Assembly: GCA_026705295.1 (NCBI GenBank)
Contig: JAPPBA010000110.1
Coordinates: 1 to 40,207, forward strand
DNA length: 40,207 bases
Origin: Candidatus Palauibacter australiensis
GTDB taxonomy: Bacteria > Gemmatimonadota > Gemmatimonadetes > Palauibacterales > Palauibacteraceae
Direction of reading: 5' to 3'
The translations under genes and the position numbers were made by a program. Shown here in pieces: positions 1 to 14,141 of the stretch. A model generated the notes under the pieces. That model worked only from the letters and a program-made list of their open reading frames with translations, made no database searches and was not told the DNA's origin. Within the stretch, counting starts at the first letter, position 1. Each line of letters starts with the position of its first letter.

Positions 1-226
1 ATTCGTGAGCGAGCAGGTCTCGCACGAGGAAACGACCGACGAATCCGGTTGCGCCGGTGACCAGGACATTGCGAAAGTCGGCGGGCGAAACCGCGGGAGC
101 CGGGGTTGCATCGGCTAGCGCGGCGCGAACGGATCGGCGCAGGGTGGTGAGATCGCGCTGGCAATCGGGCGGCAGGGTCCCTACCAGTGGCGGCACCTGG
201 TGCCTTGTCGCGGATGCGCTGGCCAT
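1..226 (-). CDS. Thioester reductase-like NAD(P)-binding protein, 5' part only
   Basis: Reading the minus strand from an ATG at 226-224 gives an open frame that runs off the window edge. After about 50 residues it shows NVLVTGATGFVGRFLVRDLL, a glycine-rich Rossmann motif (TGATGFVG) of the type found in thioester reductase / NAD-binding-4 domains and extended SDRs. The gene lies only 7 bases past the PKS stop. An alternative GTG start at 241-239 would overlap the PKS end. The PKS has no thioesterase, so this protein is the obvious candidate for NAD(P)H-dependent release of the acyl chain from the ACP as an aldehyde or alcohol. The Rossmann motif is seen directly; the release role is inference, and a sugar epimerase-like SDR is possible because the catalytic Tyr/Lys region lies outside the window. 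Confidence 0.75.
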   Translation of the reverse strand, partial: MASASATRHQVPPLVGTLPPDCQRDLTTLRRSVRAALADATPAPAVSPADFRNVLVTGATGFVGRFLVRDLLAHE

Positions 227-233
227 GGCGGAA

Positions 234-3200
234 TCAGTCACCCGCGACAGGACCGGCGCTCGGCACCGTCGACGAAATCACTCGTCGCGCGGATCCGTCG
301 AAGCCGTGAACCGGGGCGGGTTCATCCTTTGGGAAGTGGTCCTCGAACCTGTTCGCGAAGGGCGAGCGCCGCCGGCGTACCCGGTGTTCGGGTTGCCGTG
401 AGACCTCCGCCGACCCGTCGGTTTCGGCCGCGGTCTCACCCTCCCCATCCGATTCGGCTCCGTATACGATCATCTCCGCCAGTGACAGGGCGGAGGCGGT
501 CGTCATCAGCTCGAGGGCGCTCACCTGCCGGTTGAACTGGGCCTGGATGAAGGCGCCGAGTTCCGCGACCGAAATCGAGGTGAGCCCGAAGCTCGACAGC
601 GGCTCGGCGACATCGCCCTCTTCGTGCCCGCAAAGCTCGGCCACCTTGGCGGAGATCTGCGCGACGACGCTCTCGAGGGTCAGTTCGCCGCGCACGTTCA
701 CCTCGAACGCCGCCTGGTTGTTCAGCAGGCGCCCGTTGCGCATGTAGTCCGGGGAATCGACGGTCCACGCCGGGTTGGAGAAGAGCGCGGTGACCAGATG
801 GTCATGCCCCGTCGTGCCCCGCTCCGGCGTGCCGGGCTCCGGCGTGCCGGGCGCCATCGCGCGCAGGGCGTAGTCGAGATTGGCGATCGCGAAATTCGCG
901 CTCACCGTCGTCATTCCCGCCGCGCGCATCATCCGCATCACGTGGAGGCTGCGCGCCGCCATCCCGACCTCCGTGACGGGGCCGAGGTTGTACGAAAACC
1001 CGGGCAGCCCCTGCCGGCGACGCCAGGCCGCCAGCCCGTCCAGAAAGGCGCTCGCGCTGCTGTAGTTGACCTGCCCCACGTTCCCGAACGTCGAGGCGAT
1101 CGACGAGAAGAGGACGAAGTAGTCGAGGGCGCAGTCGGTCGTGGCATCGTGCAGGTTCAAAGCGCCGCGCGCCTTGGGCGCGAACACATTCTCCAGGGAC
1201 TCGGCGGAAGTGTCGAGGAACGAGCGGTCCTCCAGCGTTCCGGCGAGGTGGAAAACGCCCTTGAGCGGCCGTTGCACCCCGGCGATGCAGCGGCGCACAT
1301 CCTCCGCGTCGCGCACGTCGCCCGAAACGATCTCGATTTCGTAATCGCCGGTCATCTTCGACAGCGTGGTCGTCTGGCGGAGCCACTCGACGCTCCGTCG
1401 ACGCTCCGGATCGCGGTCCATCAGGGTGACGTGCCGGGCCCCCGCCGCGATCAGGTAGGGCACCAGGCGCAGCCCGAAACCGCCCAGCCCGCCCGTGACC
1501 AGGTAGGTGGCCTCCGGGTCGAGGAAGGGGCGCGTGTCCGCGATCGCGAACCCCCGATTCGCCGCGTCGGACGGCGTCTTCAGGACCAGTTTCCCCTGGT
1601 GCCGGCCCGTCGTCATCAGGCGGAGCGCCCTGGCGTAGTCGCCGTACCCGTAGGCGGTGAGTCGCGGTGGCGGCACCGCACCCTCGTTCATGAGGTCCAG
1701 ACAGGCCTGCGAGAGCATGTGCGACAGCACCGGATCGTCGAGCATCAGCCGGTCGACGTCGATCGCGGCGAAGCGGAGGTTCTTGCGGAAGACCCGCATG
1801 CCCAGCGAGTTGTCCGTGAAGATGTCGACCTTCCCGATCTCGCAGTGCCACCCCGATGGCCTAAGGGCCTTGAGGCACAGGGCGATGTGGTGGCCCGCGA
1901 GCGAATTCAACACGACATCGACGCCTTCGCCGCCCGTTGCCTCCATCAGGTCGTCGTACCACTCGTGGCTGTGCGAATCGAACGCCCCGCGCACGCCCAT
2001 CTCGAGCAACTGCTCGCGCTTGCTCCGATTGCCGGCGGTCGCGTAGACCTCCGCCCCGACGTGGTGCGCCAGCGCGATCGCCGCCTGTCCGACGCCGCCC
2101 ATCGCGGAGTGGATGAGGACCCGCTGTCCCTCCTTGAGACGGGCCAGGTGGATGAGCGCGTAGTACGCGGTCACGGTGACGGAGAGGGACGCCGCGGCCT
2201 CCTCCATGCTCAACCTGGGCGGCTTGAGGAAGGCCAGGTGCTCGTTCACGACGATTCGGTTGGCGATGCAGCCGCCCGTCGTGACGGCCACCTCGTCTCC
2301 GGGGCTCAGGCGCTTCACGTCCGGGCCGGCGCGGCGTACGACGCCGCTTCCCTCGATGCCGACCTCGCGGCCCAGCGCCGAGCGCTCGTAGGCCATCGCG
2401 GGGAGGAGCCCCAGCGTCACCATGACATCCCGAAAGTTCAGCGCCGCCGCGGCCATCTCGATCTCGACGTCGGAGGGTCCGAGCGGGGGCAACGCGGTGG
2501 TCGCCACCTGCAGGCCGCTCACCTGACCGGGGTTGTCGAGCCGGAGCCGGTAGGGGGGATCCGCTTCCGCGGGCACGAGCGGCCAGCGATCCCGAACGCT
2601 CACGACGCGCGGCACCCACAAGCGTCCGTCCCTGATCGCCAGCTCCCGCTCGCGCGGGTCACACGCGTCGAGCCGGGCCAGCGCCTCCAGGTCGCCGGCG
2701 GCGCCCAGATCCACGAGACGGAAGTCGATCTTTGTGTCCTCGGCGAGAAGCTCGAGCGCCAGGCTGCGCACGGCTCCCCACAACGCGCTCCCTCGCGGCG
2801 CCTCCACGCCGCAAACGGCACCCTGCGTCACGACGTTCAGGCGACAACTCCGGGTCGCGCTCTCCAGCCGGAAGGGCGCGAGGGCCTGGAGGAAGGCGAC
2901 GAGGCGCCACACCGCTCGCTCGCCCGTCGGATCATCCAGGTCCGCCCCGACGAAGAAATCGATCGCCTCGAGGTCGGCCCCCGACGGCCACTCTTCCAGC
3001 GATGCAAAATCTCCGCCCTCGATGGCGCTCCCGGGGACGCGATACGCTTCGGCCAACTCGAGTTGCGCAGTCCACTCCGTGGCCAGGCTGCCGGGTTCGC
3101 CGATCACCCAGCGGGGACCGGCGGCGCCGACCGAAGCGGCCGTCGGCGCGGGATCCTCCTGCGCAGCCTGCAGGAGCGTCGTGCGGGAGCCGGCATGAAG

Positions 3201-6200
3201 AGTGGTCCAGCCGTTCCCCGGCTCGATGACGTCGCTCTCGGCATGCGAGATGAGCGCCAGTCCCCCGGGCACGGCCAGCCGCTCGAGAACCGCCCACGCT
3301 TCGGCCCAGCGATCCCCGGCCGCTCCGTCTTCGCCCGCGTCACGGTGCAGAAGGATGATTTCGGCCGCGGCGGGCCGTAGCAGACCCGTCGCCATGTCCG
3401 TGTCGAACGCGCCCTCCGCCGTGGCGTCCAGCGACGCGAAGCGAATCGCGGCATCACGGTGGTTGAAGGCGTCGTAGAGTGCGCGCGTGGACTCTTCATC
3501 GGCGCCTAGCAGCCAGTACTCGCTCTGCGCGTCGGGGCCGGAGAGATGCTCCAGGCATCGCTCGAGCATGGTCCGCTCCGCGTCCCGGCGGCCGGCAATC
3601 TCGATGACGTGACAGGCGTACGGGTCGCCTGCCGCACCCTGTTCGAGGGCGGCGATGAGGGCGGCGGGATCGACGTCTCCGTCCCGGATCGCCTCTCCGA
3701 TCCGGGGCGCCGGCGGCACGAACTTGGGTTGCCAGCGAATGAGGTGCTTGCTGTCGGGGACGTCGCTCCAGCGCGGATTGCTGTTGAAGGAGTGATACTC
3801 CCCGATGTGCGCGAGCAGCTGCCCGGTATCGGTGTCGTAGAAGCTGAGCCGCCCGATGTACAGCTCGCCGAGAGGCTTGTTGTACTGGCCCCGCTCGTCC
3901 ACGTCGAACCAGTCGCCCGTATCGACGAGAAAACAGGTGATGCGCGGCCCCGTCGGGGGGCGCACGAACGTGATGTCGCACGCCCGCTGCGGCATGGAGA
4001 AGAAGTCGGGCAGCCGCATCAGGTAGCGTAGAAAAATCTGCAGCCCGCCGTCGGTGAGCGGGGGATAGAGGAGATATCCCTCCTCGCGGCCGGACGCCCA
4101 CAGTTCCTGATCGACCTCGATCTCGAACAGCAGGTCCGTCGAATCCGAGTCCATCTCGATCCGCTGGACGCTGCGGAACTCGGGGCCGAACTCGAAGGCA
4201 TCCCCGACGACCGCTTCAATCTGGTCGTAAAACTCCTCTCCCGTCGCGAGGGGCGAGGGATCGAAGTCGGAAGCGAGGACATCGTTCAGGGTCGGGAATG
4301 CATCGACGGCATGGTTTTCATCCACGCGCCGCACCCGTCCGCGGCAGTGCAGCGTTCCCGCCTCATCGTCCTCGAAGGATCGGGTGGAGATGGTGAACGT
4401 GAACTGGCCGGGGGCGTCGGGTACGGGGAACAGGGCCGTCTGCAGCCGTACCGGCGTCGGGTTCACCGGCGTGTGCTGCAGGAACTCGATCTCCTCGATG
4501 TTGATGGGATCCCCGGAGAACGCCTGCAGCAGAAGCTCGATGTATCCGGCGGCCGGAATGATCGGGGCCCGGTGGACGCGGTGGTCGGTCAGCCAGGGAA
4601 AGTCCTTCTCGGAGAGCCGCGCCTCGAACAGGACGTGGTCGCAGGCGACGCGGTGTCCGACGAGCGGGCCGTGGGAGTACTCGCCGCGCCGGACGAAAAT
4701 CTCGTCGTCCACCAGGTCATCGCTGGTCGTGGTCTCTTCCTTGGGATGGCCGGGAAGGAGATGAGCGATGGGTTCCGGGCGCGGATACTGCGAGGCAAAA
4801 TCCAACGTGACGCCGGCCCGGTAGAGGTTCCCCATGGCCTCCTGAAAGCGCGGGCACGCATCCTCATCCTTCATCAGTGTGGGGAGACAGGCCGCGGCTG
4901 GGCTGGCCGCTTCCAGACACTGCCGGATGAGCGGCTGCAGCGCGCCGTGCGGGGCGATCTCCAGGACCACGTCGGGCCGGCATTCCCGCCTCACGGTCTC
5001 CATCGCTGCGCCGAAGAGCACGCGGTGCCGGATGTTGGACCACCAGTAGGCGTTGTCCAGACGCTCGACCGTCGCCCCGGTGACGGACGACACCATGGGC
5101 ACGTCGAAGTTGAAGTCGCATTCGTTCAGGAAGGCGAGCGCCTGAAGCGCGTCGTCCCGCAGCGGATCCATGGCGCTGGAGTGGAATGCGATGTTCCCGG
5201 GGATCAGCCGGTTCTGCAGGCCGCGCCGGTCGAGTTCGGCCATCACCGGCCGCAGCGCGGATTCCCTCCCGCAGATGACGGTGTTGGCGGGCGAGTTCTC
5301 GCAGGCGATCTCCACCTCGGCCTGCCGGTGGTCTTCCAGCAGGTCCTCCACACCCGGCCGGTCGAGGCCGACCGCCAGCATCCGACCGGAGCCGGCCACC
5401 CGCTGCTGCAGCGTGGCGCGGTGGTAGACGAGCCGCGTGGCCTCGGCGAGGGAAAGCGCCCCGCTCGCGTACGCCGCGGCGACTTCGCCCGAACTGTGCC
5501 CGACGGCGCAGTCCGGATGCACACCCCATGTCGCCAGCAGCTCCACCAAGGCACACTGGATCATGAAGATGGCCGGCTGGGCGAGCTGAACCTCGTTCAA
5601 CTCCTCCTGGCTCGCCGAGAAACAGGCGTCGCGCAGCGACACGTCCGAGTGCTTCCGCCACTCGTCCTCGATGGCGTCGACGACCCGCCGGAAGACGGGG
5701 TCGGCATCGTACAGATCGCGTCCGCACCCTGCCCATTGCGTGCCCTGCCCCGAGAACACCATGGCCACCCGGCGCTCGCCCGCTTCCACCGTTGAGATCG
5801 GGGAGGGGTCTTCCGCGAAGGCGTCCAGTGCCTCGACCAACTCCGGGCGGCTGCGGACGACGAACGCCGCACGCACGGGGAACTGGGCGCGGCGCCGGCC
5901 CAGGTTGCCGGCCAGCGTGTAGAGGTCGATCTCCCGCCCATCCAGAAACTCCCGCAGGCGTCGTGCGCTCTCCTCCAGGGCCTTCGGCGTCCGCGCCGAG
6001 AGAGGGATCACGTAGCCGGTGTCCGGCGCCAGCGGCACCGACCACGCCCTGGATGGGTCCGGCCGGTACTCCCGCACGACGCAGTGTCCGTTCGCGCCGC
6101 CGAACCCGAAGGAGTTGATCCCGACGACGACCGGGTGGTCGGGGAATGGCTCGCAGGCGGTCTGCACCTCCATCGGACCGCGGTCGAAATCTATCTCCGG

Positions 6201-7388
6201 ATTTGGAATCAGGTAGTTCTTCGAGATGGGGGCGAACGTCCGCCGCCGCATCATGAGGATGACCTTCAGCAGCGCACAACTGAACGCCGCGGCCTCGAGG
6301 TGTCCCACGTTGCTCTTCACGCTGGCCACGCGGAGCGGCACCTCGCGCTCGACGCCGCCGAACGCCTCGGCAATGGCGTTTCCTTCGATGCGGTCGCCCA
6401 CGACCGTGCCGGTCGCATGCGCCTCCACGTAGTCGAAGTCCTCCGGCCGCAGTCCCGCCCGCTTGCAGGCCTCGCGCATGAGTTCGACCTGTGAATGCCG
6501 CGTCGGCGCCGTGATGTAGCGCCCCTGGGCGAGTCCTGCGGCGTCATCGGCGGTCCCGGCCGTGTTGACCGCCGTGGCTTCGATCGCCGCGAAGATGTGA
6601 TCTCCGTCCCGCTCTGCCGCTTCCAGCGGCTTGACGGCGAACACGAACGCGCCTTCGGACCGCATGTAGCCGTTGGCGTCGGCGTCGAAGGAGTGACAGC
6701 TGGCGTCGGGACTGATGACGCCGAGTGCGTTGAAGGAGGCGCTGCAGCGGGCGGAACCCAGGTAGGTGGCGGCACCCACCAGAGCCTGCTCGCAATCGCC
6801 CTGACGGATCGCGTTCACCGCCGTGTGAAGCGCGGTCAGCGACGCCGAGCAGGCGGTGGAGGTCGCGATCGACGGACCCATGAGGTTGAGATGGTAGGAG
6901 ATCCGGTTCGCCAGCATCGAGGCATCGATGCTCAGGATGGAGAACTCGTTGGTCCCGAACAGGGCGCGCCAGTTCGCGGTGGAGGCGACCTGGGCTCCGA
7001 TGAAGACGCCCGTGCGACTGTTGCGGAGGGCGTTCAGGCTCCAGCCGGCGTGTTCGCAGCTCTCCCACGCGCAGCCCAGTAGCATCCGGATCTGCGGGTC
7101 CATGTAGGCCATTTCGTGATGGGAGACCCCGAACAGGCCCGGATCCATCCGCTGCTCGAGGTCGTCGCGGAGCAGCCCTTCGTACGGACTGCCGAAACGA
7201 CCCGGGCCCGAGAACCGTCCGACCGGCTGGTAGCCCCGGCCGTAGCGCTCGGTGACAGGCTCCTGGACAACCTCGCGTTCGCTGAGGAGCCGCCAGAAAT
7301 CGTCGTCCGTGCGGATGCCGCCGGGCATCCGGTAGGCATAGCCGACGATGGCGATGGAAGCGCCGGATGTACCTGCGATGGAAGTCAC
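234..7388 (-). CDS. Single-module reducing type I polyketide synthase (KS-AT-DH-pseudoMT-ER-KR-ACP)
   Basis: A 2384-residue multidomain synthase that should build a reduced acyl chain iteratively. Domains in order: KS about 11-440 (TACSAS Cys180, EAHATGT His324, His363); AT about 545-860 (GHSSGE, Ser632; AFHS at His736, closer to malonyl- than methylmalonyl-type motifs); DH about 905-1200 (His936, FGPEF, Asp1113); a degenerate methyltransferase-like spacer about 1215-1600; ER about 1612-1938 (HSAMGGVGQAA); KR about 1960-2190 (TGGLGGFG, Ser2096, Tyr2109); ACP about 2236-2308 (GLTS, Ser2271). There is no thioesterase. The start is GTG at 7388-7386, which forms GTGA with the radical SAM stop and has GGAGG four bases upstream; the open frame continues further upstream but would lie inside the radical SAM gene. 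The architecture resembles the small sponge-symbiont PKSs (sup/swf type), fungal reducing PKSs and animal FAS. The product is unknown. Confidence 0.95.
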   Translation of the reverse strand: MTSIAGTSGASIAIVGYAYRMPGGIRTDDDFWRLLSEREVVQEPVTERYGRGYQPVGRFSGPGRFGSPYEGLLRDDLEQRMDPGLFGVSHHEMAYMDPQIRMLLGCAWESCEHAGWSLNALRNSRTGVFIGAQVASTANWRALFGTNEFSILSIDASMLANRISYHLNLMGPSIATSTACSASLTALHTAVNAIRQGDCEQALVGAATYLGSARCSASFNALGVISPDASCHSFDADANGYMRSEGAFVFAVKPLEAAERDGDHIFAAIEATAVNTAGTADDAAGLAQGRYITAPTRHSQVELMREACKRAGLRPEDFDYVEAHATGTVVGDRIEGNAIAEAFGGVEREVPLRVASVKSNVGHLEAAAFSCALLKVILMMRRRTFAPISKNYLIPNPEIDFDRGPMEVQTACEPFPDHPVVVGINSFGFGGANGHCVVREYRPDPSRAWSVPLAPDTGYVIPLSARTPKALEESARRLREFLDGREIDLYTLAGNLGRRRAQFPVRAAFVVRSRPELVEALDAFAEDPSPISTVEAGERRVAMVFSGQGTQWAGCGRDLYDADPVFRRVVDAIEDEWRKHSDVSLRDACFSASQEELNEVQLAQPAIFMIQCALVELLATWGVHPDCAVGHSSGEVAAAYASGALSLAEATRLVYHRATLQQRVAGSGRMLAVGLDRPGVEDLLEDHRQAEVEIACENSPANTVICGRESALRPVMAELDRRGLQNRLIPGNIAFHSSAMDPLRDDALQALAFLNECDFNFDVPMVSSVTGATVERLDNAYWWSNIRHRVLFGAAMETVRRECRPDVVLEIAPHGALQPLIRQCLEAASPAAACLPTLMKDEDACPRFQEAMGNLYRAGVTLDFASQYPRPEPIAHLLPGHPKEETTTSDDLVDDEIFVRRGEYSHGPLVGHRVACDHVLFEARLSEKDFPWLTDHRVHRAPIIPAAGYIELLLQAFSGDPINIEEIEFLQHTPVNPTPVRLQTALFPVPDAPGQFTFTISTRSFEDDEAGTLHCRGRVRRVDENHAVDAFPTLNDVLASDFDPSPLATGEEFYDQIEAVVGDAFEFGPEFRSVQRIEMDSDSTDLLFEIEVDQELWASGREEGYLLYPPLTDGGLQIFLRYLMRLPDFFSMPQRACDITFVRPPTGPRITCFLVDTGDWFDVDERGQYNKPLGELYIGRLSFYDTDTGQLLAHIGEYHSFNSNPRWSDVPDSKHLIRWQPKFVPPAPRIGEAIRDGDVDPAALIAALEQGAAGDPYACHVIEIAGRRDAERTMLERCLEHLSGPDAQSEYWLLGADEESTRALYDAFNHRDAAIRFASLDATAEGAFDTDMATGLLRPAAAEIILLHRDAGEDGAAGDRWAEAWAVLERLAVPGGLALISHAESDVIEPGNGWTTLHAGSRTTLLQAAQEDPAPTAASVGAAGPRWVIGEPGSLATEWTAQLELAEAYRVPGSAIEGGDFASLEEWPSGADLEAIDFFVGADLDDPTGERAVWRLVAFLQALAPFRLESATRSCRLNVVTQGAVCGVEAPRGSALWGAVRSLALELLAEDTKIDFRLVDLGAAGDLEALARLDACDPRERELAIRDGRLWVPRVVSVRDRWPLVPAEADPPYRLRLDNPGQVSGLQVATTALPPLGPSDVEIEMAAAALNFRDVMVTLGLLPAMAYERSALGREVGIEGSGVVRRAGPDVKRLSPGDEVAVTTGGCIANRIVVNEHLAFLKPPRLSMEEAAASLSVTVTAYYALIHLARLKEGQRVLIHSAMGGVGQAAIALAHHVGAEVYATAGNRSKREQLLEMGVRGAFDSHSHEWYDDLMEATGGEGVDVVLNSLAGHHIALCLKALRPSGWHCEIGKVDIFTDNSLGMRVFRKNLRFAAIDVDRLMLDDPVLSHMLSQACLDLMNEGAVPPPRLTAYGYGDYARALRLMTTGRHQGKLVLKTPSDAANRGFAIADTRPFLDPEATYLVTGGLGGFGLRLVPYLIAAGARHVTLMDRDPERRRSVEWLRQTTTLSKMTGDYEIEIVSGDVRDAEDVRRCIAGVQRPLKGVFHLAGTLEDRSFLDTSAESLENVFAPKARGALNLHDATTDCALDYFVLFSSIASTFGNVGQVNYSSASAFLDGLAAWRRRQGLPGFSYNLGPVTEVGMAARSLHVMRMMRAAGMTTVSANFAIANLDYALRAMAPGTPEPGTPERGTTGHDHLVTALFSNPAWTVDSPDYMRNGRLLNNQAAFEVNVRGELTLESVVAQISAKVAELCGHEEGDVAEPLSSFGLTSISVAELGAFIQAQFNRQVSALELMTTASALSLAEMIVYGAESDGEGETAAETDGSAEVSRQPEHRVRRRRSPFANRFEDHFPKDEPAPVHGFDGSARRVISSTVPSAGPVAGD
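821..850 (-). repeat. Perfect 15-bp tandem duplication inside the PKS gene
   Basis: Two identical adjacent 15-base units (GCTCCGGCGTGCCGG on the plus strand, 821-835 and 836-850) encode a repeated Pro-Gly-Thr-Pro-Glu in the linker between the KR and ACP domains. The repeat is in frame and only lengthens a flexible linker. It could be a recent slippage event. Confidence 0.8.
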
Positions 7389-9175
7389 ATGGCCTCCGCC
7401 CGGCGGTCGCGCGCTGCGGCTCCCAGGACGGGCAGCCTGGCGTTCGCCGGCCCGGCGGGTCGCGGCTCCGAAGTCAGCGCGAGTTCGAAGTCCGCCAGAG
7501 CCTCGCGGACACCGTCTCCGGCAAACCGGAACTCGGCGGGGATGGCGTTCCGGCGCGCCTCCGCGCGCTGCATGGCCTTCCGTCTGAGACGGTCCTCCGG
7601 ACCCGCGGCCGAACCGGGATCCCATCCGGCTTCATGGAATGATGCCGACTCCGACTTCAGGTAGTCCTTGAAGCCGCGGAGAACGGTCTGCTGGCGCGTG
7701 AACTTCTCGCAGTGATGCCCCGTGGCGGCCAGGCTGATGGCCAGCGGCAGGAGTCGAGGGTGGTCCCTGGACACTTTGGCGATGTAGCGCGAAAACGGCG
7801 GGAGCTGTTCCGGCGTGAGGCGCCGGCGGATTCCCATGATACCCGCATAGAGGATATGCCCGGCCACCGGCTTGTGGAGGTGCGGTACGGGATTGAGGTG
7901 GTCCAGCAGAGTAAGGCAGCGGTCGAAGTAGTTCTCCAGCGTCGAATCGTAGATGGTCCCGATGACCCGGAGATACCCCTCCACCAGCGTCCCGGCATCC
8001 ATTTGCGGCTTGAAATTCAGCGAGGTGTCGTCGATTGCGACGGGTTTGTCCAGCAATCGATTCTCGCGCTCCAGCCGGGTCCAGAGGTTCGTGCCCTTGA
8101 GCGCGGTCAGCAGCCCGATCAGCGCCATCGGAATCCCGGTTTCCTGAATGAAATCGATCTGGGCATCGAACGCGTTGTCATCGTCGTCGTCGAGCCCGAG
8201 GATGAAGCCGCCCAGAACCTGCATGCCCTTCCCTTGAATCTTGCGCACAGCCTTGAACAGGTAGTCGTCATCGCGCGTGTCGATGTTCTGCGGTTTCTTC
8301 ATCTTCTTGAGCGCCTTCGGGTTGGGCGTCTCAATGCCCAGGAAGACGGAGTCGAAACCGGCCTCGATCATGACATCCATCAAGTCGTTCATCCGGACGA
8401 GATTTACGCTCGCTTCCGTGAACAGGGAAAAGGGGTGGTCGCGCTCCTTTTGCCATTCGGCGATCGCGGGGAGGAGCCTGGAGACCTCGCGCTTGTTGCC
8501 GATGAAGTTGTCGTCGACAAGAAAGAGAGGGCCCCGCCATCCCAATGCATACAGAAGCTCGAACTCGGCCACCATTTGTTCCGGGGATTTCGTTCGGGAC
8601 ACACGGCCGTACAGCTTCGTGATGTCACAGAACTCGCAGTCGAAGGGGCATCCCCGCGAGAACTGCAGACACATCGAGTAGTAGTCGTTCAGGTCGATGA
8701 GGTCGAAACGGGGAAGCGGAGCGAGGGTCACATCCGGCCTGCGCGGAGCACGATAGACGGCCTGCGCCGTCCCGTTCTCCAGGTCGCGAAGGAAGTCCGG
8801 GAAAGTCTCCTCGACCTCATCGAGCACGAAATGATCGACGCCCTCCATCTCCTCATGAAACGTAGTGGGATGCGGACCGCCGGCGATGACGGGAACCTGC
8901 GCGCGGTTGCAGCGCTCCACGACCCGCTCCAGCGAGGGGCGTTGCGGGATCATGCTCGACGTGAAGGCCAAGTCCGCCCACTCCAGGTCGGCGTCCTCGA
9001 GCGAAGTCACGTTGAGGTCGACCACGCGCAGGTTGTACCGCGATGGGAACATCGCGGCGACGGTTAGCAAGCCTAAAGGAGGAAAGGCCGCCCTGATTCC
9101 CATGATATCCAGGGCGTAGTTGTGGCCCCAGTATGTCGGCGGGTGCCTGGGATAGAGCAGCAGCGCGTTAGGCAT
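7385..9175 (-). CDS. Cobalamin-binding-type radical SAM protein (B12-SAM/DUF4070-like)
   Basis: A 596-residue enzyme with an N-terminal region (about 1-140) matching the B12-binding domain that precedes many radical SAM cores, including AGGPHPT near residue 98. The radical SAM core carries Cys176-x3-Cys180-x2-Cys183 (GCPFDCEFC) for the [4Fe-4S] cluster, followed by LYGRVSRTK and FLVDDNFIGNKREV. That pattern is typical of the family containing hopanoid methylase HpnP and other DUF4070 proteins. The ATG at 9175-9173 lacks a clear ribosome binding site. The gene ends in ATGTGA, sharing four bases with the PKS start, so the two are almost certainly translated together. A C-methyltransferase acting on the PKS product, or on an unactivated carbon of a lipid, is the leading inference. 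Whether cobalamin is really bound cannot be judged, because no clear DxHxxG motif was found. Confidence 0.88.
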   Translation of the reverse strand: MPNALLLYPRHPPTYWGHNYALDIMGIRAAFPPLGLLTVAAMFPSRYNLRVVDLNVTSLEDADLEWADLAFTSSMIPQRPSLERVVERCNRAQVPVIAGGPHPTTFHEEMEGVDHFVLDEVEETFPDFLRDLENGTAQAVYRAPRRPDVTLAPLPRFDLIDLNDYYSMCLQFSRGCPFDCEFCDITKLYGRVSRTKSPEQMVAEFELLYALGWRGPLFLVDDNFIGNKREVSRLLPAIAEWQKERDHPFSLFTEASVNLVRMNDLMDVMIEAGFDSVFLGIETPNPKALKKMKKPQNIDTRDDDYLFKAVRKIQGKGMQVLGGFILGLDDDDDNAFDAQIDFIQETGIPMALIGLLTALKGTNLWTRLERENRLLDKPVAIDDTSLNFKPQMDAGTLVEGYLRVIGTIYDSTLENYFDRCLTLLDHLNPVPHLHKPVAGHILYAGIMGIRRRLTPEQLPPFSRYIAKVSRDHPRLLPLAISLAATGHHCEKFTRQQTVLRGFKDYLKSESASFHEAGWDPGSAAGPEDRLRRKAMQRAEARRNAIPAEFRFAGDGVREALADFELALTSEPRPAGPANARLPVLGAAARDRRAEAM

Positions 9176-9219
9176 GCGAAACCGGAGGCTCGCGCGATGC
9201 GCGGGTCAGTCCGCGCGAA

Positions 9220-9495
9220 TCAGGAACCCTCGACAGCCCCTCGCACGGCCTCGTCGGCAGCGTCGAACAGCATCTTGCGCCATTTCTTCCGCTGATTCCG
9301 GAGCGCCTTCACCATCTCCCACAGCGCGTCGCGGACCCGCTCCACCGCCTCCTCTTTCGCTTCATCGGACAGCGCCTTGCCGCTCGTGAACTCGTACTTC
9401 TCGATCGCGAAGTCGGCGATGTCCAGGATGTTGTCTCCGACGACCGCGTAATCAACCGCGTTCCTCATGGCGGGGGCCTCTCGTGGCTCGCTCAT
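9220..9495 (-). CDS. Small helical protein of unknown function, first gene of the PKS cluster
   Basis: A 91-residue charged protein. After a short disordered start, residues about 10-40 contain hydrophobic stretches (AVVGDNILDIADFAI) and residues 45-85 look like two amphipathic helices ending in a basic patch (LRNQRKKWRKML). The start at ATG 9495-9493 is chosen because CGAGG lies nine bases upstream. A closer ATG at 9504 would abut the same site, and a GTG at 9543 is possible. It lies 44 bases before the radical SAM gene on the same strand and is probably co-transcribed with it. I do not recognise a family. There is no signal peptide, membrane segment or metal motif. A cluster-specific accessory or partner protein is only a guess. 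Confidence 0.7.
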   Translation of the reverse strand: MSEPREAPAMRNAVDYAVVGDNILDIADFAIEKYEFTSGKALSDEAKEEAVERVRDALWEMVKALRNQRKKWRKMLFDAADEAVRGAVEGS

Positions 9496-9580: not shown

Positions 9581-11353
9581 TCACGTCACTCCCCTCTCCC
9601 CCGCGGACCAGGCGCGGTCCACGTGCACGGTCAGGATGTCGGCGTTGTGGTACTGGTGGTGCTTGACGGAGGAGGCGTGATGCCGCAGCAGCGCCAGCGA
9701 CAGGTCCCGCTCGCTCGTCGGGTCGGGGCGGTCCCCGAGCAGGGCCATCTGGTTCTCCAGGTTGCCCTCGTGCGTCGCCGCGGTGAACTCCAGCCCGGCG
9801 CCGAAACGGAGGTTCCGGGCCACGACGCGCAGCCGGCGCTCGCCAGGGGCGGGGGCGTGTTCGTCCTCTTCCTGGCGCAGGAGGCTGAGAAGCGCCTCCT
9901 CGGCGGCCGCCCGCAGGCGGTCCGTGGCCTTGCCGCTCCACTTGTATCTGGCCGCGAAGTCCGCGAGGAACCCGTCGAGTTGCGGAAGGTTCTCCGGGCG
10001 CAGCGCCATCTCGGTCCTGTGGCGCCGGGGTCCGGTCACGTCGAGAAACAGGTTCAGAAGCAGGATGGACAGCCCGCCCACGGTGAGACCGTTCGCCAGC
10101 ATGCGGCCCATGGGCGTGGCGAGGTAGGCGGGGAAGATGGCCTGGAACTGGATCCCCGCGCCGATCCAGAACGCCAGGCCCGCGATCAGCGAATACTGCC
10201 GGTCGATCCCCTCCTGGAAGAGGATCCGCATGCCCTGGACGAAGATGAGGCCGAAGATGACGGTCATGTAGGCGCCGAGCACGGGCGCCGGGATGGACAG
10301 GATGACGGCCGTGATCTTCGGCACGAAGGCGAGCGCGATGAAGCCGACACCGATGACGACGCCGACGCTCCGGGCGGCGACGCCGATGCCGCTCGCGATC
10401 GCGATCCCGGCGAAGTAGGGCCACGGCGGCAGCACCCCCGCGAGCCCGGACAGGAGCGTGCCCGCCCCGCAGGCTGCGACGGACCCCTGGACCCGGCGGA
10501 AATCAACCGCCCTCAGCTCGCGCCGCGAGAGGCGCTGCATGCGGACGTTGTCGGTCACCTGCCGGATCACGATCACGAAGGACAGGAAGAGGAACCCGGG
10601 CAGGAGCAGCCAGAAACTTCCGTCGAAGCTCAGGTCCAGGCCGGCTGCCGGAAGAGTGGGGATCCCGACCCAGCGGGCTTCCGCCACGCGTCCGAAGTCG
10701 ACGATCCCGAACAGCGCGGCGGTCACGCAGCCCGCGCCGATCGCGATCACGGCGTTCCACGCCCGCACCCACCGTTTGCCCCGGAGCATGAGGCCGACGA
10801 CGCACAGCATGGTGACGGCGGCGACCGTGGGGGCCGCGACCGGCGGAGCGTTCTCCGGCACCCGCGTGAGCATGGCAAACGCCATGGGCATGACGGTCAC
10901 GGCCACGAGCGCCGTCAGCGTGCCCGACACGACCGGCGTGATGATGCGCCGGAGCAGCGCCAGACGGGCCGCCAGCGCGAGCTGGCACAGCCCCGCGACG
11001 ATGACGAGCACCCCGAGCAGCGCCGGTCCGCCCGCGACGAGCGCAAGCACGCCGACCCCGATCGAAGCCCCCGAAGCGCCCATGATGGTCAGCGTTCCCC
11101 CGCCGATGCCGACGAAGCGCTTCGCCTGGACGATCGTGAGGAGGCCGCCGATCACCATGCTCGCGAAGATCGCCCAATAGAGGTATTCGTCGCTCTGGTT
11201 CGCGACGCGCGCGACGATCGTCGTGACCACCACCACCGGCACGCACACGAGGATCGCTGTCTGCGCGCCGAGCACGAGGCTCATCGCACGCGGAGGACGT
11301 TCGTCGGCCGCGAACCGCAGCTTCGCGACATCCAGGGCGGGTCCGTTCGCCAT
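9581..11353 (-). CDS. NCS2-family (SLC23-like) permease with C-terminal HATPase-like domain
   Basis: A 590-residue inner-membrane protein. Residues about 1-440 contain many hydrophobic segments and the NCS2 hallmarks, including the conserved glycine/alanine-rich TIMGASGAS region and SIPAPVLGAYMTVIFG (the family's P-x-P-V-L-G motif). Residues about 441-590 form a soluble domain whose AAEEALLSLL helix and later strands suggest a degraded HATPase/anti-sigma-like fold. ATG 11353-11351 is chosen because it overlaps the cysNC stop as TGATG; the open frame extends 22 codons upstream. NCS2 proteins usually import uracil, xanthine or ascorbate. Coupling to cysD-cysNC suggests instead a sulfur oxyanion or related anion, but this is inference from context. 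The usual Gln/Asn-rich NCS2 substrate motif appears altered (LAGVLPPWPYFAG). Confidence 0.85.
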   Translation of the reverse strand: MANGPALDVAKLRFAADERPPRAMSLVLGAQTAILVCVPVVVVTTIVARVANQSDEYLYWAIFASMVIGGLLTIVQAKRFVGIGGGTLTIMGASGASIGVGVLALVAGGPALLGVLVIVAGLCQLALAARLALLRRIITPVVSGTLTALVAVTVMPMAFAMLTRVPENAPPVAAPTVAAVTMLCVVGLMLRGKRWVRAWNAVIAIGAGCVTAALFGIVDFGRVAEARWVGIPTLPAAGLDLSFDGSFWLLLPGFLFLSFVIVIRQVTDNVRMQRLSRRELRAVDFRRVQGSVAACGAGTLLSGLAGVLPPWPYFAGIAIASGIGVAARSVGVVIGVGFIALAFVPKITAVILSIPAPVLGAYMTVIFGLIFVQGMRILFQEGIDRQYSLIAGLAFWIGAGIQFQAIFPAYLATPMGRMLANGLTVGGLSILLLNLFLDVTGPRRHRTEMALRPENLPQLDGFLADFAARYKWSGKATDRLRAAAEEALLSLLRQEEDEHAPAPGERRLRVVARNLRFGAGLEFTAATHEGNLENQMALLGDRPDPTSERDLSLALLRHHASSVKHHQYHNADILTVHVDRAWSAGERGVT

Positions 11354-13233
11354 CAGCGATCCTCCGTCACGGGAGTTGGGTACTCGCCGTCGAGTCTTTC
11401 GACCAGCAGGTCCACACATTCTTCCGCGGAGAGTGTTTCCGTGTCCAGGCGCAGATCGGGTTGTTCGGGCCGTTCGTAGGGACTGTCGACTCCCGTGAAG
11501 TTCCTGATGTCTCCTCTGAGCGCCTTGGCATAAAGTCCCTTGGGGTCACGCTCCGCGCACGCCTCCAGCGACGCGTCCACGAAGACCTCGACGAAGTCGC
11601 CGGGCTCGAACAGGCTGCGGGCATAGTCGCGCTCCGACCGGAAGGGGCTGATGAAGGCGACGATGACGATCAGCCCCGCATCGACCATGAGGCGAGCGAC
11701 CTCCGCCACTCGCCGGATGTTCTCCACCCGATCCGCCTCGGTGAAGCCCAGGTCCCGGCACAGGCCGTGGCGCACGTTGTCCCCGTCCAGAAGATACGTA
11801 TGCCGGCCCTCGATGGTCAGGCGGCGGTCGAGCAGGTTGGCGATGGTGGACTTCCCCGAAGCGGACATCCCGGTCAGCCACACGCACTGGGCGCGCTGGA
11901 GCTTGAGCCGCGAGCGGACATCCTTCGAGACGTCCAGGTGCTGCCATTTCACGTTCGCCGACCGCATGAGCGGGAAGACGATCGTGCCGGCGGCGGCCGT
12001 CGCGTTCGTGGCGCGGTCGATCAGGATGAAGCCTCCCAGCTTGCGCGACTCGTCGAAGGGCGCGAAGGGCACGGGGCGGTCGGTCGCGAGGTTCACGGTA
12101 CCGAGGTCGTTCAGGCGCAGCACGGAAGCGGCCAACTCGTTGCCGTTGGACACGTCCAGCCGGTGCCGGATCCGGGTGACGGCGGCGCCCACTTCCCGCG
12201 AGTGGAGCTTCATCGTGTACCGGCGGCCGACGGCGAGGGGCTCGTCGTGCAGCCAGACGAGGCGCGCCTGGAACTGGTCCGCCACCTCGACGGGCTCATC
12301 GGCGGCCACGACGACATCGCCCCGCGTGACATCGACATGGGGAGCCAGGGTCAAGGTCACGGAGTCGCCCCGGGTGGCGCGGTCTCGGGTGCCATCCCCC
12401 ACGACGATCGACGCCACACGGCTCCCGGTTCCGGCGGGCGAGACGCGTACGGCATCGCCGACCGCCACCGAGCCCGCGGCTACGCGCCCGCAGTACCCCC
12501 GGAAGTCGGCGTCCGGCCGATTTACGTATTGGACCGGCATCCGAAAGGGCTCGCCGCCGCGCGCGCCGCCGACCTCCACGGTCTCGAGGTACGCAAGGAG
12601 TGTCGGGCCTTCGTACCACGGCGCCGACGTGCCGTTTCGGGTGAGGTTGGCGCCGGTCAGCGCCGAGACGGGAATCGCCTCGACCGCGGCAAGGTCGATC
12701 TCGTCGGCGATGGCGCGACACGACGCGCGGATCGATTCGAAGACGTCCCGGTCCCATTCGACGAGGTCCATCTTGTTCACGGCGAGCACCGCGTGGCGGA
12801 CGCCGAACATGGCCGCGATCCGCGTGTGCCGCGCCGTCTGCCGCAGAACCCCCTTGCGCGCGTCCACCAGGACGACGGCCACGTCGGCGGTCGAGGCGCC
12901 CGTCGCCATGTTGCGCGTGTACTGCTCGTGGCCGGGCGCGTCGGCCACGACGAACCGGCGACGCGGCGTCTCGAAACTCCGGTACGCGACGTCGATCGTG
13001 ATGCCCTGTTCACGCTCGTCCCGCAGTCCGTCGACGAGCAGGGCGAAATCGGTCGCCTTCCCCTGCGTGCCGTAGCGGGCCGAGTCGTGTTCGACGCGCC
13101 TCAGTTCGTCGGAAAAGACCTGCCGGCAATCGTACAGCAGCCGGCCGATGACGGTGCTCTTGCCGTCGTCGACGCTACCGCAGAGCACGAAGCGAAGGGT
13201 CGGCGGCACGGGCGGCGGCACGGGCGGCGGCAT
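11353..13233 (-). CDS. cysNC: Bifunctional sulfate adenylyltransferase subunit 1 / adenylylsulfate kinase
   Basis: A 626-residue fusion. The N-terminal GTPase half (CysN, about 1-430) shows CGSVDDGKST, DAPGHEQYTRNM and NKMD, the G1, G3 and G4 motifs that drive ATP sulfurylase. The C-terminal APS kinase (CysC, about 435-626) shows the P-loop TGMSASGKST and FISPFRSERDYAR. With CysD it converts sulfate and ATP to APS and then PAPS in the cytoplasm. The ATG at 13233-13231 overlaps the cysD stop (TGATG), and its own stop overlaps the NCS2 permease start in the same way. The fusion is common in bacteria. All expected motifs are intact, so the enzyme should be active. Confidence 0.97.
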   Translation of the reverse strand: MPPPVPPPVPPTLRFVLCGSVDDGKSTVIGRLLYDCRQVFSDELRRVEHDSARYGTQGKATDFALLVDGLRDEREQGITIDVAYRSFETPRRRFVVADAPGHEQYTRNMATGASTADVAVVLVDARKGVLRQTARHTRIAAMFGVRHAVLAVNKMDLVEWDRDVFESIRASCRAIADEIDLAAVEAIPVSALTGANLTRNGTSAPWYEGPTLLAYLETVEVGGARGGEPFRMPVQYVNRPDADFRGYCGRVAAGSVAVGDAVRVSPAGTGSRVASIVVGDGTRDRATRGDSVTLTLAPHVDVTRGDVVVAADEPVEVADQFQARLVWLHDEPLAVGRRYTMKLHSREVGAAVTRIRHRLDVSNGNELAASVLRLNDLGTVNLATDRPVPFAPFDESRKLGGFILIDRATNATAAAGTIVFPLMRSANVKWQHLDVSKDVRSRLKLQRAQCVWLTGMSASGKSTIANLLDRRLTIEGRHTYLLDGDNVRHGLCRDLGFTEADRVENIRRVAEVARLMVDAGLIVIVAFISPFRSERDYARSLFEPGDFVEVFVDASLEACAERDPKGLYAKALRGDIRNFTGVDSPYERPEQPDLRLDTETLSAEECVDLLVERLDGEYPTPVTEDR

Positions 13234-14141
13234 CAGAAGTAGCCCCGCGTCTTCTTGAGTTCCATCGAGCCGTCGCGGTCATGGTCGATGAGACGCCCCT
13301 CGCGTTCGGAGCGATCCGTCGCGAGCGTCTCCGCGATGACCGCGTCGAGCGTCTCCGCGTCGCTCTCGACGGCGGCCGTCAGCGGGTAGCAGCCCAGCGT
13401 CCGGAAGCGGATGCGCCGTTGCTGCGGCTCCTCGCCCGGGCGCAGCGGCATCCGGTCGTCGTCGACCATGATCCACCGTCCATCCCGCTCGACGACGGGA
13501 CGCTCGGCGGCGTAGTAGAGCGGAACGATCGGGATCTCCTCCGCGCGGATGTACCGCCAGACGTCCGCCTCGGTCCAGTTCGAGAGCGGGGAGACTCGCA
13601 GCGATTCGCCGGGCGCCAGGCGCGTGTTGTACAGGTTCCACGGCTCTGGACGCTGCGCCTTCGGATCCCACCGGTGCGCCGCGTCGCGCAGCGAGAACAC
13701 ACGCTCCTTGGCGCGCGACTTCTCCTCATCCCGGCGCGCGCCGACGAAGATGATGTCGTATTCGCCCTCGTCGAGCGCCTGCCGCAGCGCGACCGTCTTC
13801 ATGATGTCGGTGTAGCGATCCGACCCATGGTCGAACGGATTGACGCCCTCGCGCAGCCCGGCATCGTTCGTGTGAACGCGGAGTTCCAGGCCCGCTTCCG
13901 CCGCCGTTCGGTCCCGGAACGCGATCATCTCCCGGAACTTCCACGTCGTGTCGATATGGAGCAGCGGGAACGGCGGCGATGCCGGCCAGAAGGCCTTCCG
14001 GGCGAGGTGCAGGAGCACGGACGAATCTTTTCCGACCGAATACAGCATCACGGGCCGCGACGCCGCCGCGAGGCCCTCCCGGAGGATTTCGATGGCTTCG
14101 GACTCGAGCGACGCCAGCCAGGCGCCCGAGAGATCGTTCAG
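13233..14141 (-). CDS. cysD: Sulfate adenylyltransferase subunit 2
   Basis: The catalytic ATP-pyrophosphatase subunit of ATP sulfurylase. The PP-loop [17 protein letters not shown] and the terminal KKTRGYF are typical of CysD. The frame stays open upstream to 16226 inside the RND gene, but no ATG, GTG or TTG lies near the expected N-terminus. The best start is CTG at 14141-14139, which overlaps the RND stop as CTGA, lies nine bases after GGGAGG and yields 302 residues, the usual family length. The next in-frame ATG ([10 protein letters not shown]) would remove the N-terminal helix before the PP-loop. The enzyme acts with CysNC immediately downstream. Its coupling to an efflux operon is unusual. 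Confidence 0.95.

Follow-up and report, generated by a model that had tools for sequence, protein, structure and literature searches.

The swf cluster and its published relatives

The swf cluster was described in 2013 (Della Sala 2013) and comprises swfA, a PKS with the domain order KS-AT-DH-ER-KR-ACP; swfB, a reductase joined to a sulphotransferase in a protein of 839 aa; and swfC, a B12 radical SAM enzyme (PMC3908369). Published loci include PS11G3, PSA11D7, and POR_0547-0550, and in PS11G3 a permease, a STAS gene, and a 92-aa ORF of the POR_0546 type precede swfA (PMC3908369). An alkyl-sulfate product was proposed in 2013, of a kind that standard saponification and methylation would miss, and expression of the whole cluster in E. 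coli BAP1 yielded no new metabolite (PMC3908369). Sponges and other marine invertebrates are known to yield aliphatic sulfates, though rarely (PMC6780655). Swf-like clusters have also been reported from sponge MAGs of Nitrospirota, Latescibacterota, and Acidobacteriota (PMC9426513) and from Candidatus Thalassonella (PMC10227082), and the poribacterial origin was withdrawn in a 2014 paper (PMC4245539). Swf is widespread in marine sponge bacteria.

The sup clusters (supA) likewise feature a single-module PKS in sponge symbionts, and the permease of swf locus PS11G3 has its closest reported match in a SupE-type permease. They are nevertheless set apart by description: supA forms a separate PKS clade in published trees, whereas swf is defined by the fusion of reductase and sulfotransferase and by the radical SAM gene.

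A copy of swf in a Palauibacter-type symbiont

The window analyzed here is the whole of contig C110 (40,207 bases) from a draft genome of 3.58 Mb in 188 contigs (95.5% complete); because it spans the entire contig, the assembly stops at base 1. The host is a Candidatus Palauibacter-type Gemmatimonadota sponge symbiont. The nearest named relative is the Gemmatimonadota sponge symbiont Candidatus Palauibacter rhopaloidicola RHO1_bin_50 (genome G003), whose SwfC is 98% identical, and the records of the MAGs, that species among them, name sponge projects; the sponge origin is thus as read from record names.

Seven predicted genes follow each other in one direction on the minus strand in the order cysD, cysNC, permease, small protein, swfC, swfA, and swfB. 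The cysD stop and cysNC start overlap as TGATG, and a TGATG with a one-base overlap likewise joins the cysNC stop to the permease start. Between the permease stop and the small gene lie about 86 nt, and between the small gene and swfC 44 nt, while swfC and swfA overlap by GTGA (...GCCATGTGACTTCC...) and swfA and swfB by 8 nt (GTGACTGA). An earlier note on this DNA had described the last four genes as a tight minus-strand unit with a shared GTGA junction. All four are present on that strand, and the GTGA junction holds for swfC/swfA, the swfA/swfB junction being the 8-nt overlap instead; further upstream on this strand, the unit takes in permease, cysNC, and cysD. A promoter and terminator scan between the genes returned no signal clearly above chance, and we infer from the overlaps and the shared strand that the row forms an operon.

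Judged by its sequence, the cluster is a copy of swf, as the published SwfA signatures, the domain order, the reductase-sulfotransferase swfB, and the B12 radical SAM swfC all match. With PS11G3, PSA11D7, and POR_0547-0550, it shares the PKS domain order, signature motifs, a fusion protein of ~839 aa, and the B12 radical SAM enzyme, and with PS11G3 also a permease and, probably, the 92-aa ORF upstream of swfA. It differs from published swf loci in gene order (swfC-swfA-swfB), in its Palauibacter-type Gemmatimonadota host, in having no separate STAS gene between the permease and the small gene, and in the PAPS synthesis genes cysD-cysNC that head the row. The earlier suggestion of a possibly undescribed lipid pathway is rejected, since the window agrees with the published swf definition (PMC3908369) in all published features tested; that definition also has a 92-aa ORF immediately upstream of swfA. 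Of the precedent that the earlier note had sought, a known cluster with the same genes and a characterized product, the first half exists; no characterized swf product was found in the published literature searched. The earlier note was right about the setting in sponge symbionts and the choice of sup and swf as comparison.

A single-module, fully reducing synthase

SwfA (234..7388, minus strand; 237-7388 without the stop; GTG start at 7388) is a single-module type I PKS/FAS of 2384 aa, the published type being ~2350 aa, in which Pfam identifies KS, AT, DH, ER, KR, and ACP. Its KS motifs, DPQIR at 97 and HATGT at 324, take the swf form (DPQ[I/V]R/HATGT) as opposed to DPQQR/HGTGT, and the AT carries FSGQGTQW at 545, QCALVEL at 611, GHSSGE at 630, and IAFH at 733. 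Given the malonyl-type AT motif and the full reducing set, an iteratively built, saturated chain would be expected. The earlier note's single-module, fully reducing PKS is thus recovered domain by domain, with iteration as a prediction from this architecture.

Residues 1180-1640 (2469..3851, minus strand) cover a possible pseudo-methyltransferase and structural KR region. An active C-methyltransferase is rejected for SwfA: Pfam gave no hit to one, and neither a methyltransferase motif nor a SAM-binding glycine motif was present in this stretch in 30 orthologues. The best fold match of its AlphaFold model (pLDDT 70) is the CurJ C-methyltransferase 5thy (E 5e-5), followed by PKS reducing regions and then mammalian FAS. 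Profile comparison of this linker with the active C-MT domain of another PKS in the same genome gave no support. A dead methyltransferase domain inside SwfA is therefore possible, and stays a suggestion because the model is weak and the profile comparison unsupportive.

SwfC as a candidate methylase and the spread of swf

SwfC (7385..9175, minus strand; 7388-9175 without the stop) has 596 aa with B12-binding, radical SAM, and DUF4070 domains (DUF4070 match, E 4e-21) and a CxxxCxxC motif at C176/C180/C183. As the earlier note had proposed, these features are plausibly those of a methylase that targets an unactivated carbon. In the published tree, SwfC groups with methylases, nearest to HpnP (PMC3908369). 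HpnP and other DUF4070 methylases share the B12-binding, radical SAM, and DUF4070 architecture, whereas the gene setting of HpnP differs and the SwfC substrate is unlikely to be a hopanoid.

That tree position, together with the lack of a methyltransferase motif in SwfA itself, argues against a different radical modification by SwfC, such as C-C coupling of chains, epimerisation, or desaturation. We regard such a reaction as fairly unlikely, even though B12 radical SAM families are diverse; the NCBIfam models for ApyD, BchE, PhpK, HpnJ, HpnR, and ladderane-type enzymes all score far below cut-off, and profile comparison brings up, as the best-matching solved chains, 9ccb, a generic radical SAM protein, and the non-methylase AprD4. 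Methylation by SwfC remains our preferred reading, and it may be optional, since PSA11D7 carries swfA and swfB without swfC (PMC3908369).

SwfC relatives were sought in 84,980 species genomes, and those with swfA and/or swfB come from records named Gemmatimonadota, Acidobacteria, Alpha- and Gammaproteobacteria, Nitrospira(les), and Latescibacterota. In a quick IQ-TREE phylogeny of 84 proteins (SH-aLRT), all 53 linked proteins group in a single clade, which has 59 members and a support of 100, the remainder being 2 unlinked and 4 undecidable at contig ends, so that swfA and/or swfB lie close by in 53/55 decidable loci. The outgroups, from Geothrix, Sungiibacteriota, Poribacteria, and other Acidobacteria, have neither gene nearby. 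The earlier note had asked whether the radical SAM homologues might never co-occur with the PKS; the opposite was found within the swf clade, and the tree rejects a chance neighbor. Because the clade mixes phyla, its sequences suggest transfer of swf between symbionts, although misbinning of MAGs may explain some phylum labels. The clusters of Nitrospirota, Latescibacterota, Acidobacteriota, and Tectomicrobia (PMC9426513; PMC10227082) are of the same type across phyla, and Palauibacter-type Gemmatimonadota is added here to the swf hosts named in the papers found.

The nearest non-swf relatives of SwfC, in sponge-type Acidobacteria (L114, L116, L119), lie 3-6 kb upstream of type II fatty acid synthesis-like genes that appear by eye to be fabD, fabG, acpP, and fabF, perhaps a hint of an ancestral lipid substrate.

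PAPS synthesis genes are linked to swf in the swf-bearing genomes of the genus

At the head of the row, cysD (13233..14138, minus strand; start codon uncertain) encodes the small subunit of sulfate adenylyltransferase, and cysNC (11353..13233, minus strand) encodes its GTPase subunit fused to APS kinase; together they would synthesize PAPS. Among 17 draft genomes of the genus, swfB and swfC are present in 12, and cysD-cysNC adjoin swf in 12/12 of these, while cysD occurs in one (G012) of the five genomes that lack swf (one-sided p=0.002, a simple count that ignores common descent). PF01507 picks out a single gene, the linked CysD, in each genome with swf; two are present only in G011, and both are CysD. 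With CysD as the sole match to PF01507, no CysH is detectable in the 17 incomplete drafts, and the same drafts returned no match to the sulfite/nitrite reductase family NIR_SIR (PF01077), for which 11/14 control genomes did. Assimilatory sulfate reduction operons would be expected to include both CysH and sulfite reductase. As a result, sulfotransfer is the only visible use of PAPS, and the simplest reading of these gene contents is that PAPS here serves sulfotransfer.

Could the linkage be incidental, with cysD-cysNC simply the ordinary sulfate assimilation genes of the host? The pair is common bacterial housekeeping, it is usually the only copy in the 12 genomes, and these genomes share ancestry and do not represent 12 independent events. 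Against this, 0/17 genomes encode a CysH-like gene besides CysD or a NIR_SIR match; sulfotransferase genes likewise stand next to the remaining two cysD-cysNC operons of the genus (at G011 C90 and G012 C31); and outside the genus, where cys-swf linkage is not universal, APS-kinase genes lie close to swf at four loci, from Nitrospira (L134), a bacterium (L105), a gammaproteobacterium (L123), and Gemmatimonadetes (L127). We consider an incidental association improbable and retain the reading in which the pair supplies sulfotransfer.

Several side observations concern the same genes. The cysD-cysNC operons at L188 (9009-16517) and L189 (5842-11345) have no adjoining swf; they carry a sulfotransferase and a nearby MpaB/rubber-oxygenase-type protein, with DUF1499 also in L189, and possibly represent another sulfation pathway. 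In L134, a similar small ORF seems, by eye only, to lie between swfB and cysNC. Given that PF01077 is undetected in the 17 genomes, the symbionts probably need external reduced sulfur.

Proposed chain release by a reductase-sulfotransferase fusion

Only the first 80 codons of swfB (2..241, minus strand) are encoded in the window before the contig ends. They feature a Rossmann motif, TGATGFVG, and match NAD_binding_4 (positions 1-18), the N-terminus of a thioester reductase. Full-length SwfB of relatives spans 832-840 aa, with NAD_binding_4 (thioester reductase) followed by Sulfotransfer_3. The sulfotransferase part lies on another contig of the same genome: the last 192 SwfB codons open contig C144 (C144:1-579) and share 68% identity with residues 647-838 of the relative's protein that served as query. 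Full-length SwfB here would accordingly number about 838 aa, and swfB is probably intact, a grade set by the roughly 1.7 kb between the two pieces that was not found in the assembly of this genome. The earlier note's thioester reductase therefore stands as to its reductive release domain; the relatives' full-length proteins and contig C144 reject a reductase only, and the sulfotransferase was invisible to the earlier reader because the contig ends 80 residues into swfB.

Reductase and sulfotransferase are fused in every full-length SwfB examined, and across 49 distinct sequences the Rossmann motif is kept in 42/49, YxxxK in 48/49, and the PAPS loop in 48/49. By profile, the reductase domain matches MxaA and other R-domain structures, and the sulfotransferase domain matches 2zq5 and 2z6v. 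Elsewhere in the genome, a stand-alone sulfotransferase (G000:C11:22775-23893, L061) is 37% identical to the SwfB sulfotransferase domain; it lies near clpP/clpX/tig-like genes (by eye) and has copies in several genomes of the genus.

A sulfotransferase coupled to chain release, as in SwfB, could instead serve activation, with a chain hydroxyl sulfated as a leaving group to give an alkene or other unsulfated lipid. The curacin sulfotransferase domains are described as acting in this manner where PMC3908369 cites Gu 2009, and the ST-TE of CurM resembles SwfB in being a PKS-associated PAPS sulfotransferase. CurM-type chemistry, however, depends on a thioesterase and on decarboxylation of a beta-hydroxy acid, whereas SwfB has a reductase, and no thioesterase domain was found in the window proteins or in the relatives' SwfB; we give activation a similarly slim chance to that of an incidental PAPS linkage. 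Slimmer still is the prospect of a free aldehyde or alcohol as end product, as the earlier note had it, with the sulfotransferase dispensable or acting on another substrate: R domains do release aldehydes or alcohols, and an SDR gene followed by a convergent aldehyde dehydrogenase just downstream of swfB on C144 could process an aldehyde further, but the release enzyme carries a fused sulfotransferase with a PAPS loop in 48/49 sequences and the PAPS genes adjoin swf.

Accessory genes

The 91-aa helical protein (9220..9495, minus strand; 9223-9495 with its stop at 9220-9222) has homologues beside swfA/swfC in many loci, upstream of swfA in several, and by size and place probably matches ORF19/POR_0546 of published swf loci. 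Its model consists of two helices (pLDDT 88), for which solved structures offered no significant fold match. In other loci (L105 2090-2783, L111 2568-3382, L138 1324-2619, L093 14388-15038) the homologue comes after a STAS (anti-anti-sigma) gene or forms one protein with a STAS domain, which suggests that swf has an attached module for partner switching or regulation.

The 590-aa NCS2-fold permease (9581..11353, minus strand) resembles in position the SupE-like permease of PS11G3, and its C-terminal domain is weakly like HATPase_c_2 of RsbW type (E 0.007). It has about four paralogues per genome, in the window genome at G000:C96, C136, C166, and C67; NCS2-type permeases with a C-terminal RsbW/HATPase-like domain make up a family with about five members in each Palauibacter-type genome, and the paralogue at C166 (L172) adjoins a large PKS with a methyltransferase domain. 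A regulatory or transport role is possible for both accessory genes.

Proposed pathway and implications

We propose, with fair confidence, that the swf cluster of this Palauibacter-type symbiont, linked to PAPS synthesis, directs formation of a (methyl-branched) alkyl sulfate. SwfA would build a reduced acyl chain iteratively from malonyl units, and the cobalamin radical SAM enzyme SwfC would methylate an unactivated carbon, either in the chain or in the product after release. The reductase domain of SwfB would release the chain as a primary alcohol by four-electron reduction, and the fused sulfotransferase would move sulfate from PAPS, supplied by CysD and CysNC, onto this alcohol. From the encoded enzymes, the likely product is a primary alkyl sulfate, probably methyl-branched. 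The sequences themselves establish family membership, domains, catalytic motifs, gene order, the linked PAPS genes, and that the CysH and sulfite reductase families are undetected in the genus; we infer the iteration, the chain length, methylation and its position, release as alcohol rather than aldehyde, and sulfation of that alcohol.

Activity should not be assumed in every genome, since the cluster of Candidatus Palauibacter rhopaloidicola (G003) is decayed. Its swfA is split over two contigs that share a 10-bp sequence and have foreign flanks (L037 1-3400, L176 1-1400, 6185-8704), one flank carries a phage-type integrase, and its swfB has an in-frame stop. Genome G008 (L038) is an example with an intact set.

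Overall, the cluster in the window is ordinary for its type, which is known yet unsolved, and its gene context adds a useful new clue. The cluster type and the alkyl-sulfate idea date from 2013; the linkage to PAPS genes and the Gemmatimonadota host are new here. A PAPS-synthesis pair locked to swf, in genomes with no visible reductive use of PAPS, backs the alkyl-sulfate proposal at the genomic level and implies that experiments should include cysD-cysNC and seek anionic sulfates without saponification. More tentatively, and with somewhat less than even expectation, swf in this genus may work as a seven-gene operon that leads from PAPS to alkyl sulfate and is self-sufficient, having sulfate activation and a membrane permease of its own, and methyl-branched alkyl sulfate lipids may be common to unrelated phyla of sponge symbionts, overlooked because standard lipid work-up misses them.
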